Origin: an uncultured Roseiflexus sp.
GTDB taxonomy: Bacteria > Chloroflexota > Chloroflexia > Chloroflexales > Roseiflexaceae
Length of the DNA: 57,428 nt
Direction: 5' to 3'
Assembly (NCBI GenBank): GCA_937935075.1
Contig: CALGYB010000014.1
Span: forward strand, 1 to 57,428
Shown here: positions 19,690-32,558 of the stretch, piece after piece
Numbering within the stretch: position 1 is the stretch's first letter
Layout: every line of letters starts with the position of its first letter
The notes under the pieces: generated by a model
Databases searched by the model: none
Seen by the model: only the letters and a program-made list of their open reading frames with translations
What the model was told of the DNA's origin: nothing
Program-made: the position numbers and the translations under genes

Positions 19690-19730
19690 ACCCATCCGCC
19701 CGCAGGCTTGAAGCCTGCGGGCGGATGGGT
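19690..19730 (+). terminator. 41-nt perfect hairpin between rpoB and rpoC
   Basis: Two 20-base arms (beginning ACCCATCCGCCCGC) pair perfectly around a single central base, starting 11 nt after the rpoB stop and ending 34 nt before the rpoC ATG. No T-run follows, so full intrinsic termination is unlikely. It could be an attenuator, an mRNA-stability element, or a mobile palindromic repeat. The central AGGCTT-G-AAGCCT resembles other intergenic palindromes in this window. Confidence 0.75.
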
Positions 19731-19764
19731 GTTGTCACCACAGGCGCATCACGTGGAGAAACCA

Positions 19765-24288
<4,524 letters not shown>

Positions 24289-24309
24289 CTCGCCGTGCTG
24301 TCTCAAACA

Positions 24310-24387
24310 GTAGGGGCGACCCATCGGGTCGCCCCTACGAATCCGCCGCGTTGGACTATATGGGCAGGGCGACCCGCCGCGTCGCCC
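24310..24387. repeat. Tandem GTAGGGGCGAC hairpins between rpoC and next gene
   Basis: The first copy, 24310-24338, has 13-bp perfect arms (GTAGGGGCGACCC) and an ATC loop. The second, about 24366-24387, is a diverged copy (GGGCGAC...GTCGCCC). The end of the second copy overlaps the stop codon of the convergent minus-strand gene. Both could terminate rpoBC transcription. Confidence 0.8.
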
Positions 24388-24933
24388 CTACAAATCGATC
24401 CCGATCCGTGCCAGCACCGCAGCCGCCGCCCCGTTGACCCGCATGAGCGCCAATCGCCGCTGAACATAGTCGTAATCGAACGCCTGGCGACGGGCAATGG
24501 CTGTCGCGTCGGCAATATCATGCTTCCCTTCTTCGGGACCACGCGCCAGCAGCGCTTTGTGCAATGCGACATCTTCGGGCGATAATACCGGAACCAGCGA
24601 CCCGAGTAATGGGAGACGCCGCACACGACTGCGCATATCAGCATCGAGCGTAAATGGGTAGATCTCCTGACCGCGCCGGATGGTCAGATCATCAAAAATC
24701 TTGATGCCACGCCAGAGAATGCGCTGACCGTCGAATTGCACTACCTTTTGCTGCTGGTTGAGCAAACGAACCACTTCGGACAACTTTCCCGGCTCGATGA
24801 GGATATCGATATCCTGAATGGGGCGGCGATTGCCGTAGAGATGTGCAGCAGCGCCAGCACATACCGCCCACGCGAGCTGATACGCATCGAGCGTGCGCTG
24901 CACAACGCCGAGATTGCCTGCGATGAGTGACAT
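24388..24933 (-). CDS. Nucleotidyltransferase-fold protein (AbiEii/MNT-like)
   Basis: This is a 181-residue protein. CAGAAAHLYGNRRPIQDIDILIE, at about residues 25-47, fits the nucleotidyltransferase-superfamily signature: a helix with Gly-x-Ala-x-x-Leu-Tyr followed by the Asp-x-Asp metal pair (here DID). The C-terminal half has LSPEDVALHKALLARGPEEGKHDIADA, also typical of stand-alone NTases related to AbiEii or RelB-like sugar/nucleotide transferases. No antitoxin partner is adjacent. Its stop codon TAG is formed by the last bases of a repeat hairpin, so the natural C-terminus may have been altered by repeat insertion. It lies 96 nt downstream of the GNAT gene on the same strand. Confidence 0.75.
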   Translation of the reverse strand: MSLIAGNLGVVQRTLDAYQLAWAVCAGAAAHLYGNRRPIQDIDILIEPGKLSEVVRLLNQQQKVVQFDGQRILWRGIKIFDDLTIRRGQEIYPFTLDADMRSRVRRLPLLGSLVPVLSPEDVALHKALLARGPEEGKHDIADATAIARRQAFDYDYVQRRLALMRVNGAAAAVLARIGIDL

Positions 24934-25029
24934 GAAACACTACTCGCTCACAACACATGTTTCCACTGGTCTCTATCATAACGAAACCACCGCATCTGTT
25001 GCAAGAGACCTGATAGTCCTATCTGCATA

Positions 25030-25653
25030 TCACCCATGATGACCGGCGCCAGTAGGGGTGCGGCGTCTGATCCATTCTTCGCGGTGCAGACGCATCTCAA
25101 AGAACTCGACCTTCAGACCGCGCGGGTCGTCGCGGAAATGGCGGCGCAACGATGCATACATCGGTTGATCGAGCACCCGCCGATCAAATAAGGCGCCGGC
25201 GCTGCGCCAGTCGCTCTCGATGTACTGGAAGCCAAGGCGCGTGTAGCAGCGCACCGCACGAACATTGGGCGCAGCGACATCGAGCGCCATCAGGTGATAC
25301 CTGAGCGTTTCGAAGTAGTAATCGAGGAACAGAGTGAGCGCTTCGGTGCCAAGCCCACGACCAACATACGGCGCTCCGAACGTAACACCGAGGCGCGCCT
25401 GACCGCGTCGCTCATCGATTTCGCGCAGCGAAATGCGCCCGATCAGCGCGCCGCTGTTATTTTCGACCGCCCAGCTCCGCCGATAAATGCCGTGTTCGAG
25501 TAATGCATTCCACATCCCACCGCCGAATGACGCTGGGCGCGGCAGGTTCCAAAGGGGATCGAACGGATCGTTATACGGTGGCCAGTCATCAGCCAGTTCA
25601 TCATCGTGATATTTCCACGGACGAATGAGGACGCGCGGACCGCGCAACTCCAT
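25030..25653 (-). CDS. GNAT family N-acetyltransferase (RimJ/RimL-like)
   Basis: This 207-residue protein has the GNAT fold signature: an N-terminal beta-strand segment (LRGPRVLIRPWKYHDDELADDW), a core strand (GALIGRISLREIDERRGQARLGVTFG) and the acetyl-CoA pyrophosphate loop YVGRGLGTEAL. A RimJ-style C-terminal block (ALDVAAPNVRAVRCYTRLGFQ) follows. It should transfer an acetyl group to an amine, likely a protein N-terminus or Lys, or a small molecule. The substrate is not predictable. It is encoded 20 nt downstream of two sirtuin-like genes, which suggests a link between acylation and deacylation. Confidence 0.9.
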   Translation of the reverse strand: MELRGPRVLIRPWKYHDDELADDWPPYNDPFDPLWNLPRPASFGGGMWNALLEHGIYRRSWAVENNSGALIGRISLREIDERRGQARLGVTFGAPYVGRGLGTEALTLFLDYYFETLRYHLMALDVAAPNVRAVRCYTRLGFQYIESDWRSAGALFDRRVLDQPMYASLRRHFRDDPRGLKVEFFEMRLHREEWIRRRTPTGAGHHG

Positions 25654-25673
25654 AGCGCCTCCTGCTAGCAGGG

Positions 25674-26453
25674 TTAGATAGCATCGACGTGCAACTCTTC
25701 CAGACCGCCAACATCACCAACGATCAATTGCACGAGTTCTGGCATAACAACGCCTGGTGTGGTATTGAGGACATAATCCGCCATCAGCGTGTAGATCGAC
25801 TCATCAGGCGCGATGGTCAGCACGAATGCACCATGACGACGCGCCACGAAAGGGAACGAAGCCACCGGCTCAATGGCGCCGACCGTTCCAACACACAGAA
25901 ACACATCACACTGTTCAACAACCTGCCGTGCCCGGCGCAACTCATGGTGCGGCAATCCCTCACCGAACATGACCACGTCCGGTCGAAGCAGGCTGCCGCA
26001 CTGTACGCAGCGTGGCGGGATCTCACCATCTTCATCCCAGGCAAAGGCGACATGTCCCGACTCATAGCAACGACAGCGGCGCAGGCTGCCATTCAGTTCG
26101 ATCAGATCGCGTGAACCTGCTCGCCAGTGCAGTCCATCGATCGACTGCGTGATGAGCGTAAACGCCGGATAGTACTGTTCCAGATCAACGAGCGCATAGT
26201 GTGCAGCGCCGGGTTGCGCACGCTCTGCCAGCGCGCGACGATAGGCATACCATTCCCACACCAGACGCGGGTTACGCACGAACGCCTGCGGCGTCGCCAG
26301 TTCGCTGACATCATACCGCGCCCAGTCACCGGTGTGCGCTTCACGAAACGACGGAATGCCGCTTTCCGCTGCCACACCGCCGCCAGTCAGCGCCACCACG
26401 CGCTGGGCCTGTGAGAGGCGACGGATCACATTGTCGGGAAGTGTCAGAGACAT
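25674..26453 (-). CDS. Degenerate sirtuin paralogue lacking catalytic His and Asn
   Basis: This 259-residue protein is clearly homologous to the neighbouring sirtuin along its length, including WYAYRRALAE, the zinc-ribbon Cys residues (RCRC, CVQC) and RPDVVMFGE. The NAD-site residues, however, are changed. The usual GAGxSxxSG reads GGGVAAESG (residues 24-32). The TQN(I/V)D Asn is Ser104. The catalytic His of the ELHG motif is Asn121. Loss of this His normally abolishes deacylation. Possible roles are NAD or acyl-peptide binding, ADP-ribosyl transfer (macrodomain-linked SirTM enzymes also lack the usual His), or regulation of the intact sirtuin encoded 49 nt upstream. The frame is intact, which argues against simple decay. 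Confidence 0.88.
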   Translation of the reverse strand: MSLTLPDNVIRRLSQAQRVVALTGGGVAAESGIPSFREAHTGDWARYDVSELATPQAFVRNPRLVWEWYAYRRALAERAQPGAAHYALVDLEQYYPAFTLITQSIDGLHWRAGSRDLIELNGSLRRCRCYESGHVAFAWDEDGEIPPRCVQCGSLLRPDVVMFGEGLPHHELRRARQVVEQCDVFLCVGTVGAIEPVASFPFVARRHGAFVLTIAPDESIYTLMADYVLNTTPGVVMPELVQLIVGDVGGLEELHVDAI

Positions 26454-26502
26454 CGCACAGCTCCTTCATCGACATCAGAACGAAGGATGTGGCAGCGATT
26501 CA

Positions 26503-27246
26503 TCACGCCGCGTCGCCAAAGGCGGCACTCATCATCGCAGGAAGCAGTTGTCCCGCTGGTGCATACAGATGCAGGTCCAACTGACCATCGAGCGCACCAG
26601 GAGCAATGTTGATTTCAACCGTATATGCGCCAGCAGATCGTGCAATCAAGGGGAGATCGGCAGCCGGACGCACGACTCCCGATGTGCCGATACAGAGGAA
26701 CAGATCACACCGTTCGGCAGCCGCCACGGCAGTACGCCAGGCTTGCGGCGGCAGCCATTCGCCAAACCAAACCACATCAGGACGAACCAGACCGCCGCAC
26801 CGCGCGCAACGCGGTGGCGCGTCCTGAGGCACAGTCACCAATTCAACCGGCGTATCATCATCAAAACAGCGATACCGGAACAGGTTGCCATGCAATTCTA
26901 CCACGTTCCGACTCCCGGCGCGGCGGTGGAGATCGTCGACGTTCTGGGTGATGAGGGTAAAATCGGCGATCCGGCGCTCCAGATCGGCAAGCGCCAGGTG
27001 CCCCGGGTTTGGTGCAGCGGCTTCGACCAGCGAGCGGCGATAGGCGTACCACTGCCATACCAGCGTCGGGTTGGCGCGGAATGCCTCGGGTGATGCCAGT
27101 TCGGCCGGATCGTAGCGCGCCCACAAGCCGGTTTGCGCATCGCGAAAGGTTGGCACACCGCTCTCGGCGGAGACGCCGGCGCCGGTCAGCACGGCAACTC
27201 GCTGTGAACGGCGTAAACGTTCGATCAATGGGTCGGGAATCTTCAT
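26503..27246 (-). CDS. NAD-dependent protein deacylase, class III sirtuin
   Basis: This 247-residue sirtuin has all active-site motifs: GAGVSAESGVPTFR (residues 22-35), TQNVDDLH (Asn102, Asp104), and catalytic His119 in VVELHGNLFRYRC. It also has a zinc ribbon (C..., CARCGG), RPDVVWFGE, and a GTSGVV nucleotide-binding loop. The YxxR pair in WYAYRRSL is the class III (SIRT5/CobB-like) signature, which favours removal of succinyl, malonyl or glutaryl groups. The reaction consumes NAD and yields nicotinamide and O-acyl-ADP-ribose. It lies 33 nt after the pseudokinase gene and 49 nt before its degenerate paralogue. Confidence 0.95.
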   Translation of the reverse strand: MKIPDPLIERLRRSQRVAVLTGAGVSAESGVPTFRDAQTGLWARYDPAELASPEAFRANPTLVWQWYAYRRSLVEAAAPNPGHLALADLERRIADFTLITQNVDDLHRRAGSRNVVELHGNLFRYRCFDDDTPVELVTVPQDAPPRCARCGGLVRPDVVWFGEWLPPQAWRTAVAAAERCDLFLCIGTSGVVRPAADLPLIARSAGAYTVEINIAPGALDGQLDLHLYAPAGQLLPAMMSAAFGDAA

Positions 27247-27279
27247 ACGCCAATCCGTAAGTTCACGAGATCAATCACG

Positions 27280-28698
27280 CTATCCCTCAGAACGCACATA
27301 GAGTTGTGAAACCCACCCTTCAACCTGCCGACCGTCGATTTCACCGCGCACTCGCACCCAGGGAACGCCATCGACACTGCGCGGTCCTTCGAGTTTGCGG
27401 AGCCGGGTTCCATTCGGCAGCAATGCGATCACCCGAGTGTTCAGCCCCGGTTCGTCGCGGAGGTTCAATCCCTCGACATCACCGATAGTCACGGTCAACA
27501 CCTCGCCGGAACCATTCGCCACCCCGGTCAGCCAATCCGGCAGAGGAACATTCTCAGGCAACGTTACCTGCGGACGTGGCAGACGAACGTTCGTCAACCC
27601 TTCGATGACCAGACTTGTCAGGACATACGCTCCTGAGCCGACCAGAACAAAGAGCGCCACCATGACGATGAGCGCCGCCAGCGAATGCTGGCGCGTTCCG
27701 CGCATTGCGCTCTGATGAGCCATAGTCGCCATTGAGTCCAACGGCGGCGCCGAAGCGACCGGCTGCAATTCGGGGCGCACCGGCGCCGGGCGGTCAACCG
27801 AAGGCGACGATGCCCGCTGTCCTCGACCATTCACATCAGCGGGAGACGCCGACGGGGTCGCGGCATGGGGCGCCAGGCGATCGGTGGAGTGACTGATAGC
27901 GCGGCGCACATCGTCGAGCGCCTGACTCAGCGCATGTGCGTCAGGAAAGCGTTGAGACGCATCGGGTGCTGTGGCGCGCGCGATCATGTGCGCGAGCGAC
28001 GGCAGGTAGATATGAGGGCGCAGATCAGCGAGCGTTGGAAGCACGACATTTCGCTGCGCCTGGAATATGGCGTTCAGATCATCGCCCTCGACCACGCGAC
28101 GCCCGGTCAGCATTTCGATCAGTAACAACCCCAGGGAGTACACCACGCTGGCTGCAACGGGAGGATGACCGGCGACACGTTCTGGAGCACGGTAACAGGC
28201 AATGTCGGCGCCAAACTCCGCTGGGGTCATGCTCCAGTTTTCGACCAACTTGACACGTCCTTCGTCTACCAGCACGATATTCGCGCTGCTGATCGGCGGG
28301 TACGGCGCGCCGGCGGTCTGACACGCCGCGACAGCACCAACGATCTGGCGAAAGTAGAGCAACGCCACCTCGACGGTCAACGGTCCAAGTTCGCGCAGCG
28401 TCCTCCCCGACACATATTCCGTCACCACAAATGGACGATTGGCAACCTCACCGCTGTCGTACACCTGGAGCAGCGATGGGTGCAGAGAACGAGCGCCGGA
28501 CTGCGCCTCGGCAATGAAACGGCGGCGCAGCGCTTCCTGCGCCGCCAGTTCCTGGCGGAACAGCGCCATCAACGCCAGACGTTGCAGCCGCTCGTCGTAT
28601 GCCCGATAGATGACCGCGAGACGTGTCGCGCCAAGCCGCTCTTCGATCCGGTAGCGGTCGTGCAACAGAGGTGCAGCGGGCGCAGGAGACTGAGCCAT
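27280..28698 (-). CDS. Transmembrane pseudokinase with extracytoplasmic SH3b domain
   Basis: This is a 472-residue protein. Residues about 14-275 have the overall fold sequence of a Hanks-type Ser/Thr kinase (RYRIEERLG at the start, FVVTEYVSGRTLREL in the hinge, CYRAPERVAGHPP, VVYSLGLLLIEMLTGRR). The motifs needed for phosphotransfer are nevertheless gone: the glycine loop reads LGATRLAVIYRA, the VAIK Lys is replaced (LALMAL), HRDLKPEN reads PPISSAN, and DFG reads ENW. A Pro/Ser-rich linker, one TM helix (LAALIVMVALFVLVGSGAYVL) and a C-terminal SH3b domain (GLNLRDEPGLNTRVIALLPNGT, PWVRV) follow. SH3b domains outside the cell often bind cell-wall or other ligands, so this is likely a sensor or scaffold. 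The start at 28698 avoids a dubious 33-residue extension. It heads the sirtuin operon. Confidence 0.9.
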   Translation of the reverse strand: MAQSPAPAAPLLHDRYRIEERLGATRLAVIYRAYDERLQRLALMALFRQELAAQEALRRRFIAEAQSGARSLHPSLLQVYDSGEVANRPFVVTEYVSGRTLRELGPLTVEVALLYFRQIVGAVAACQTAGAPYPPISSANIVLVDEGRVKLVENWSMTPAEFGADIACYRAPERVAGHPPVAASVVYSLGLLLIEMLTGRRVVEGDDLNAIFQAQRNVVLPTLADLRPHIYLPSLAHMIARATAPDASQRFPDAHALSQALDDVRRAISHSTDRLAPHAATPSASPADVNGRGQRASSPSVDRPAPVRPELQPVASAPPLDSMATMAHQSAMRGTRQHSLAALIVMVALFVLVGSGAYVLTSLVIEGLTNVRLPRPQVTLPENVPLPDWLTGVANGSGEVLTVTIGDVEGLNLRDEPGLNTRVIALLPNGTRLRKLEGPRSVDGVPWVRVRGEIDGRQVEGWVSQLYVRSEG

Positions 28699-28731: not shown

Positions 28732-28760
28732 ATTATAGCATCTGGCGTGCGTCGTCGCAA
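28732..28760 (-). promoter_or_regulatory. Predicted promoter of the pseudokinase-sirtuin operon
   Basis: On the minus strand TTGCGA (28755-28760), a 17-nt spacer and a perfect TATAAT (28732-28737) precede the pseudokinase ATG (28698) by about 33-60 nt. Confidence 0.65.
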
Positions 28761-28838: not shown

Positions 28839-29053
28839 TTGCCGGGGGCTAACACTCAATTTCGTTCAGTCAGACAAGATGTTCGCGCGTTCGTTGGGCA
28901 AGGCGCAATGGTCAACGCGCAGCGGCAGGCGTGTCGCGGACGCACAACCGCGCATTGGCATCAGTCCGCCCGGCGGCTCAAGCCGCAGGCTACGGCGGCA
29001 AAGCCCGCGCAGGCGGGCTTTGCCGGGTGATACCGGATTATGTTCTCAAAATA
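28839..29053 (-). repeat. Composite intergenic repeat, inverse orientation
   Basis: This contains two modules also found near 44366 and 48711-48950. One has AGCCCGCGCAGGCGGGCT and a TTGAGAACAT end. The other has the GCGCGAACAT...TGTCTGAC end. Here both are on the minus strand relative to 48.7 kb. No gene is supported between 28761 and 29121. Confidence 0.7.
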
Positions 29054-29828: not shown

Positions 29829-29951
29829 TATGAGTCCACTGCAAAAAGGCTTAACTACAAAGGCCACGAAGCGCACGAAGGTGAAAATGAAGCGCATTTC
29901 CTTTGTGTCCCTTTGTGACCTTCGTGGTTCGCTTTTTGCAGTGAAGTCATG
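29829..29951. repeat. MITE-like element with terminal inverted repeats, copy 1
   Basis: The ends ATGAGTCCACTGCAAAAAGG and its near reverse complement (GCTTTTTGCAGTGAAGTCAT) form ~20-bp terminal inverted repeats with few mismatches. The interior is a second hairpin built from CACGAAGCGCACGAAGG and CCTTTGTGACCTTCGTGG. No coding capacity is present. It lies in the gene-free stretch 29727-30036. A longer relative is at 32311-32533 and a damaged one at the window end. Confidence 0.8.
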
Positions 29952-32105: not shown

Positions 32106-32310
32106 ATCCCGACTGTATTCCTGTCGCTGTGCCAGGCGCATTGTACCACGATCATGCGGGTGGCGAGCGATGAGCGACGAGAGGGGGGAGGGAGGTTTTC
32201 ACTCCTGCTTAGTGTAAAGATTTCTCCTCTTTGTGTTTCGATACTCTTTCTGATCATGCCCGTCTTATGTGCTATAGTTAAGCAATCATTAAGTAACATG
32301 AACATCTCTT

Positions 32311-32533
32311 ATGAGTCCACTACAAAAAGGCTTAACCACCAAGGACACGAAGCGCACGAAGGTGAATAAACATGAAGCGCATTCCCTTTGTGTTCCTTTG
32401 AGACCTTCGTGGTTAGCTGCACAGAGGCTTAACCACCAAGGACACGAAGCGCACGAAGGTGGATAAACATGAAGCGCATTCCCTTTGTGTCCCTTCGTGA
32501 CCTTCGTGGTTACGGCTTTTTGCAGTGAAGTCC
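32311..32533. repeat. MITE-like element, copy 2, with two internal units
   Basis: The ends are like those of the element at 29829-29951 (ATGAGTCCACTACAAAAAGG at left, GGCTTTTTGCAGTGAAGTCC at right). The interior is doubled: two tandem units of about 80-85 bp, each carrying ACCAAGGACACGAAGCGC and a CCTTCGTGGTTA end. It occupies most of the 453-nt gap between homoserine dehydrogenase and the DUF5132-like gene. Confidence 0.8.
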
Positions 32534-32558
32534 TTAATGAAAAAGAAAGGAGAAAGCA

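Follow-up and report, generated by a model that had tools for sequence, protein, structure and literature searches.

A pseudokinase-acetyltransferase gene cluster of the Chloroflexales retains, in some lineages, a catalytically dead sirtuin, possibly as an acyl-lysine-binding partner

What does a sirtuin do once the residues of its catalysis are gone, and why would it be kept beside a pseudokinase and an acetyltransferase? This question is raised by a five-gene cluster in an uncultured Roseiflexus sp. (contig CALGYB010000014.1). The window analyzed here is that one whole contig of 57,428 bp, part of a 4.85-Mb genome. Five open reading frames (ORFs) were confirmed on the minus strand, encoding a membrane pseudokinase (KIN), a catalytically intact sirtuin (SIRA), a non-catalytic sirtuin (SIRB), an acetyltransferase (GNAT) and a small predicted nucleotidyltransferase (NTR), with intergenic gaps of 33, 49, 20 and 96 nucleotides (nt) in this order (Table 1). 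The neighboring rpoC gene (plus strand, 19708-24288) faces the cluster tail to tail. An original prediction, made from the letters of the window, had placed the same genes 20-96 nt apart, as we found them, and had interpreted them as a signal-controlled acylation switch built on a writer and an eraser. The gene-order comparison that it proposed was carried out and revealed a real cluster, evolutionarily conserved across the Chloroflexales. We consider it possible, at a little less than even confidence, that the cluster couples an acyltransferase to a membrane pseudokinase acting as a scaffold, and that the ancestral eraser is now a non-catalytic acyl-lysine-binding partner.

The original prediction had distinguished one intact sirtuin from one without the catalytic His and Asn, and reading these residues in SIRA and SIRB confirmed the distinction. 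SIRA contains every Sir2 motif, including GAGVS, TQNVD, ELHGN, GTS and the zinc Cys residues, and scored 290 bits against NCBIfam NF001753 (cut-off 243). By these sequence features it ranks among the active Sir2 deacylases, and like the CobB/SIRT5-type (class III) enzymes it has every catalytic feature. SIRB matched SIR2 (PF02146) at 8.5e-43 and kept the zinc Cys residues, with GGGVA for GAGVS, TQSID for TQNID and ELNGS for ELHGN. It falls outside the active deacylases, the catalytic His and Asn being gone in the window and in all orthologues read from the window's family.

We compared SIRB across the window's family (f1) and other families of the same order (f2 to f4; genera are given as g codes). 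Both Asn and His were absent from every f1 orthologue read (24 sequences from nine genera). Both were present in f2 and in the f4 genera g20, g23, g27, g29, g30 and g31; both were changed in f4.g28, and Asn only was changed in f4.g26 and in f3. Counted by f1 genus, the NAD-chemistry positions were retained as follows: Asn in 0/9, His in 0/9, the Ala of GAG in 1/9, the Ser of GAGxS in 1/9 and, in the GTS motif, Thr in 1/9 and Ser in 0/9. All nine genera (9/9) kept the two acyl-pocket residues, Tyr69 and Arg72, as well as Val and Glu of VxFGE at the peptide edge. A tree built without the trait columns required at least two changes for each of the two catalytic residues. An approximately unbiased (AU) test did not reject a single His loss uniting f1 and f4.g28 (p 0.37), and independent losses are thus not established; nor is it established that SIRA joined SIRB independently in f1 and in f3 (AU p 0.33).

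In the alignment, Tyr69 of SIRB is nearly invariant and Arg72 invariant, and the two appear to reproduce the Tyr-x-x-Arg pair of SIRT5 and CobB. From their position, homologous to Y102 and R105 of SIRT5, we take them to mark the acyl pocket. The predicted structure of SIRB (predicted local distance difference test score, 89.7) aligned to Sir2-Af1 (1m2g) with a Z score of 29.5 and a root-mean-square deviation of 2.9 over 243 aligned positions, and this model places SIRB in the Sir2 fold family, with a predicted Rossmann fold and zinc module. The model aligned to SIRT5 at a Z score of about 28 and to PDB entry 8z58 at 27.9. According to its title, that entry is a complex of N141V-SIRT5 and a succinylated fragment of Prx1, indicating that loss of the equivalent Asn does not prevent a sirtuin from holding an acyl peptide. 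A similarity search with SIRB returned mostly loci already in the comparison and, in addition, CobB-like proteins of at most 50% identity from other phyla. SIRB shares with the CobB/SIRT5-type deacylases the fold, the zinc Cys residues and the SIRT5-type Tyr/Arg acyl pocket, but it is without the catalytic Asn and His and without the majority of the NAD-site residues.

Selection on the five genes was compared in Roseiflexus and its sister genus g5. The median omega (ratio of nonsynonymous to synonymous substitution rates) was lowest for SIRB (0.064), followed by NTR (0.090), SIRA (0.100), GNAT (0.136) and KIN (0.199), with synonymous divergence (dS) near saturation in many of the pairs. SIRB is thus under strong purifying selection and is the most constrained of the five genes in Roseiflexus, more tightly than the active SIRA. 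SIRB is the sole Sir2 protein in 15 f1 genomes. These 15 include all 11 genomes of genus g8, and nine of them are at least 90% complete; therefore, SIRB cannot merely regulate an active sirtuin in those organisms. The strong preservation of a catalytically dead SIRB suggests that its function is the binding of acyl groups, not their removal.

We examined KIN by profile search, which detected Pkinase (1.1e-13) and SH3_3 (2.4e-07) domains. The beta-3 Lys (LALMALF), HRD (PPISS) and DFG (VEN) motifs are lost, and one hydrophobic segment is predicted, in agreement with the SH3b-bearing transmembrane pseudokinase described earlier. In 53/53 KIN orthologues with a readable active site, none of the three catalytic residues (beta-3 Lys, HRD Asp and DFG Asp) was present, which places KIN outside the active Ser/Thr kinases, and a PP[IVM]xS-type motif is common to the orthologues at the HRD position. 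Since the KIN proteins of sirtuin-less clusters also lack the catalytic residues, kinase activity was probably lost before the order diversified. The fold of KIN matches PknB (Z score 26.8). Like the PknB/PASTA-type membrane Ser/Thr kinases, KIN has a kinase domain, a single hydrophobic segment and an extracellular-type domain in the same order, whereas its orthologues lack the Lys, HRD and DFG motifs and SH3b replaces PASTA. Described bacterial pseudokinase families include ActPs1-3, GLW, CP1, DYD and DLHK, in a paper that mentions no Chloroflexota, SH3 or Sir2 (PMC12599244). KIN resembles these families in that all catalytic motifs are degraded and, as in GLW, a membrane segment follows the kinase domain, but it is confined to the Chloroflexales in the genomes sampled. 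Assignment of KIN to GLW was rejected, because it has PPISS at the HRD site and not Gly-Leu-Trp.

Against the KIN profile, orthologues of KIN reached 480-640 bits (less for one truncated copy), and other kinases at most 228 bits. Among 400 sampled genomes of the phylum, these orthologues were found only in the Chloroflexales. The gene distribution and the KIN scores thus define the cluster as a Chloroflexales feature with optional sirtuins. In the genomes of the window's genus that are readable across the cluster, and in g5, the arrangement is KIN-SIRA-SIRB-GNAT-NTR adjoining rpoC. Elsewhere in f1, genera g3, g6 and g8 have KIN-SIRB-GNAT, and in g2, g4, g7 and g9 the order is SIRB-DUF402-GNAT, followed at some distance by NTR. 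In f4, KIN-SIRB-GNAT occurs in eight genera, four of them with NTR, and g12, g16, g17, g21 and g34 have KIN-GNAT with or without NTR, a sirtuin not being found in the cluster. The f2 genomes have KIN-SIRB, and in most of them the next gene encodes a PlsC-like acyltransferase. KIN-SIRB-SIRA is found in f3.g11, and GNAT-NTR is separate and elsewhere in f3. SIRB thus separates KIN from GNAT in two families, and in two others it immediately follows KIN. Only Roseiflexus, g5 and g11 have SIRA in the cluster; in the sample it neighbors only degenerate SIRB and never an intact one. KIN-GNAT(-NTR) is the most persistent part of the cluster, and SIRA is a local addition to it. The original prediction had named separation of the genes in relatives as evidence against it, and some such separation was observed: g2 and g7 have KIN at another place, and in f3 GNAT-NTR lies apart from KIN-SIRB.

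Several local variants were also observed. In f1.g2 and f1.g4 (L060:7459-9213 and L062:1938-3536), KIN is not in the cluster, and SIRB has as its divergent neighbor the gene of an intact zinc-ribbon Ser/Thr kinase that probably contains a membrane segment. In four f1 genera (L060:6034-6573, L062:4562-5080, L063, L059), the DUF402 gene between SIRB and GNAT runs 4-7 nt into the start of GNAT. The PlsC-like acyltransferase (PF01553) of f2 occupies the place of GNAT after SIRB (L068:5507-6241, L071:5514-6320, L073:4579-5379). In about 10 f4 genomes (L136:3611-4990, L084:7200-8558, L144:2358-3935 and others), KIN is preceded on the same strand by a class-III aminotransferase gene (acetylornithine-type, NF004426).

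GNAT matched Acetyltransf_3 (PF13302) at 1.7e-17 in the window, and 31/31 members matched this profile. Its acetyl-CoA pyrophosphate loop is intact, and G102, E104, N130 and Y137 are invariant. NTR matched NTP_transf_5 at 1.5e-07, with 31.7 bits against a cut-off of 31.2; a D[IV]D motif is conserved in f1, with TID in one f4 member, and NTR is the cluster partner of GNAT in f1, f3 and f4. Of the acetyltransferase and the nucleotidyltransferase named in the original prediction, the former was thus well supported and the latter rests on a match just above the cut-off. Pat/CobB and AcuA/AcuC are bacterial acetyltransferase/deacetylase regulatory pairs. The Chloroflexales cluster resembles them in pairing an acetyltransferase with a deacylase, but it is tied to a membrane pseudokinase and its sirtuin is often non-catalytic or missing.

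The arrangement that we favor would work as follows. KIN would be anchored in the membrane as a scaffold, its SH3b domain probably facing outward and sensing cell-wall material, and its dead kinase domain, in the cytoplasm, would dock partner proteins rather than phosphorylate them. GNAT, encoded by the most constant partner gene of KIN, should transfer acetyl groups. The ancestral cluster would have contained SIRB as a working SIRT5/CobB-type deacylase, if the intact state is indeed ancestral, and on the branch toward the window's family it would have lost its NAD chemistry and kept the fold, the zinc site, the Tyr/Arg pocket and the peptide-binding edge. The loss of the NAD site together with the retained acyl pocket and peptide edge suggests that SIRB is most likely an acyl-lysine-binding adaptor, which would recognize or shield, at KIN, a target acylated by GNAT or by another enzyme. 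In Roseiflexus, the active SIRA beside it could supply deacylation.

Several points weigh against this arrangement. The retained acyl pocket of SIRB is predicted from homology, the membrane topology of KIN is likewise a prediction, and the omega comparison carries the saturation of dS stated above. In g2 and g7, KIN is elsewhere on the chromosome while SIRB-DUF402-GNAT stays together, and the closest tie of SIRB there is therefore to GNAT, not to KIN. The nearest named families of GNAT, namely spermidine, aminoglycoside and PseH-type acetyltransferases, are weak and mixed matches, all far below cut-off. Because of these matches GNAT may act on a non-protein substrate; it is at most a candidate protein lysine acetyltransferase, and its substrate could be a small molecule instead.

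This last point leads to another explanation, that GNAT and NTR form a small-molecule or polyamine modification system of which KIN and the sirtuins are loosely associated neighbors. The solved proteins closest to GNAT by sequence include spermidine N1-acetyltransferases, an aminotransferase gene lies upstream of KIN in f4, GNAT and NTR form a pair in f3, and the sirtuin is missing from the cluster in several genera. However, the GNAT family matches are unspecific, the aminotransferase fits the acetylornithine-type family best and none was seen beside KIN in f1, and KIN-SIRB persists without GNAT in f2 and f3; we regard this system as unlikely. We give the same low credence to SIRB being an allosteric or heteromeric pseudoenzyme partner of the active SIRA, the pair forming a regulated deacylase. 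SIRA lies directly beside the degenerate SIRB in Roseiflexus, g5 and f3.g11, and the sirtuin paralogues FAM118A/B are activated by partnership (PMC12700824), but both of these need their own catalytic residues and belong to a different sirtuin branch, and SIRB is kept as the only Sir2 protein in the 15 f1 genomes. The two-enzyme cycle first proposed, with GNAT as writer and SIRA/SIRB as eraser under the control of KIN, holds best in the f4 genera with an intact SIRB between KIN and GNAT, and possibly in Roseiflexus through SIRA. The real cluster and the intact acetyl-CoA motif of GNAT agree with that proposal; the pair as the conserved core does not survive the comparison, since SIRA is local, several genera (g12, g16, g17, g21 and g34) have KIN-GNAT(-NTR) and no sirtuin in the cluster, and the 15 f1 genomes have only the dead SIRB. 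As a general account, we judge it quite unlikely.

Two further explanations have very little in their favor. SIRB could be a SirTM-like (class M) enzyme that ADP-ribosylates proteins from NAD without a catalytic His, which SirTMs also lack, and SirTMs too are encoded in an operon with other enzymes. In SirTM, however, Gln137 replaces the catalytic His and Asn118 is required, N118A being dead (PMC4518038); SIRB has Ser104 and Asn121 at the corresponding positions, and SirTM-like activity was rejected on these residues. Neither a macrodomain nor GcvH-L was seen among the neighboring genes scanned, and we judge this activity highly improbable. SIRB could also be a functionless relic decaying toward deletion, as the lost catalytic residues and the sirtuin-less clusters of some f4 genera might imply. 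Full-length ORFs in nine genera, an omega below that of the active SIRA and the conservation of non-catalytic residues led us to reject pseudogene decay, and we attach almost no probability to a relic.

We examined transcription of the cluster, for which the original prediction had proposed a single promoter serving five genes. A scan of 10 kb found 3 promoter sites against 3.5 expected by chance, so the score of the KIN promoter by itself means little. Its hexamers and 17-nt spacing are nevertheless kept upstream of KIN in five species despite diverged flanks, which supports it. A TCTTG...TATSAT element upstream of NTR is largely conserved in seven genomes, and SIRB and GNAT have good ribosome-binding sites. 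The footprint of the proposed promoter is thus conserved, but NTR is preceded by an element of its own; the cluster is therefore read as a putative KIN-SIRA-SIRB-GNAT transcript and possibly a separate NTR, which may be transcribed independently of the KIN promoter. In one genome of the genus (G003), the KIN-SIRA gap is about 234 nt, compared with 37-67 nt in other members, and contains a tandem array of GCTGCGTCC-like units (L058:6211-6441).

Table 1. Positions of the cluster features in the window
Feature	Position	Strand	Details
Sigma-70-like KIN promoter	28732..28760	-	TTGCGA, 17 nt, TATAAT, extended -10 TG; 10/12 match
KIN, membrane pseudokinase	27280..28698	-	Kinase fold residues ~11-270; predicted hydrophobic segment ~342-360; C-terminal SH3b ~400-470
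SIRA, catalytically intact CobB/SIRT5-type sirtuin	26503..27246	-	SIR2 1.4e-54; NF001753
SIRB, non-catalytic sirtuin	25674..26453	-	Asn to Ser104, His to Asn121; Tyr69/Arg72 and zinc Cys retained
SIRB Ser104 codon, replacing catalytic Asn (TQN to TQS)	26142..26144	-	Sequence and alignment
SIRB Asn121 codon, replacing catalytic His (ELHG to ELNG)	26091..26093	-	Sequence and alignment
GNAT, Acetyltransf_3 (RimJ/RimL-like) acetyltransferase	25030..25653	-	Intact GRGLGTEA motif
Probable separate NTR promoter	24975..25004	-	TTGCAA, 18 nt, TATGAT; 9/12 match
NTR, small predicted nucleotidyltransferase (GAAAHLYGNRRPIQDIDIL)	24388..24933	-	Weak NTP_transf_5 match

Additional elements were found around the cluster. 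At 24290-24385, where NTR and rpoC converge, lies an inverted repeat, GTAGGGGCGACCCGATGGGTCGCCCCTAC, accompanied by part of a second copy; this repeat may be a bidirectional terminator or an element like a repetitive extragenic palindrome. An interspersed repeat of about 105 nt occurs in three copies (29829-29933, 32310-32418 and 32407-32515), 77-93% alike across shared blocks, and what may be an inverted copy ends near 32539. A single Rfam CRISPR-DR28 match at 29001-29024 was barely above threshold, and a CRISPR array was rejected there, a second repeat copy not being found nearby. A role in anti-phage defense was also rejected: the PADLOC matches of KIN, PD-T4-6 among them, were of the generic kinase-fold kind, and none of the other four proteins had a match.

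A literature search did not find a paper on a pseudo-sirtuin or on a cluster of this composition, although absence from such a search is no proof. Little is known about lysine-acylation readers in bacteria, and most bacterial pseudokinases are without known function. That SIRB founds a class of bacterial pseudo-sirtuins, which would read acyl-lysine independently of NAD while tethered to a membrane pseudokinase, is a doubtful extension of the scaffold reading. The Chloroflexales provide, within one order, a natural series in which the sirtuin is active, dead or gone beside the same pseudokinase and acetyltransferase, and this series allows a direct test of the role of the sirtuin fold after the loss of catalysis and of what the membrane pseudokinase recruits. 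If SIRB is such a reader, two dead enzymes would recruit one live acyltransferase, and in genus g8 the module would work without an active sirtuin in the genome.

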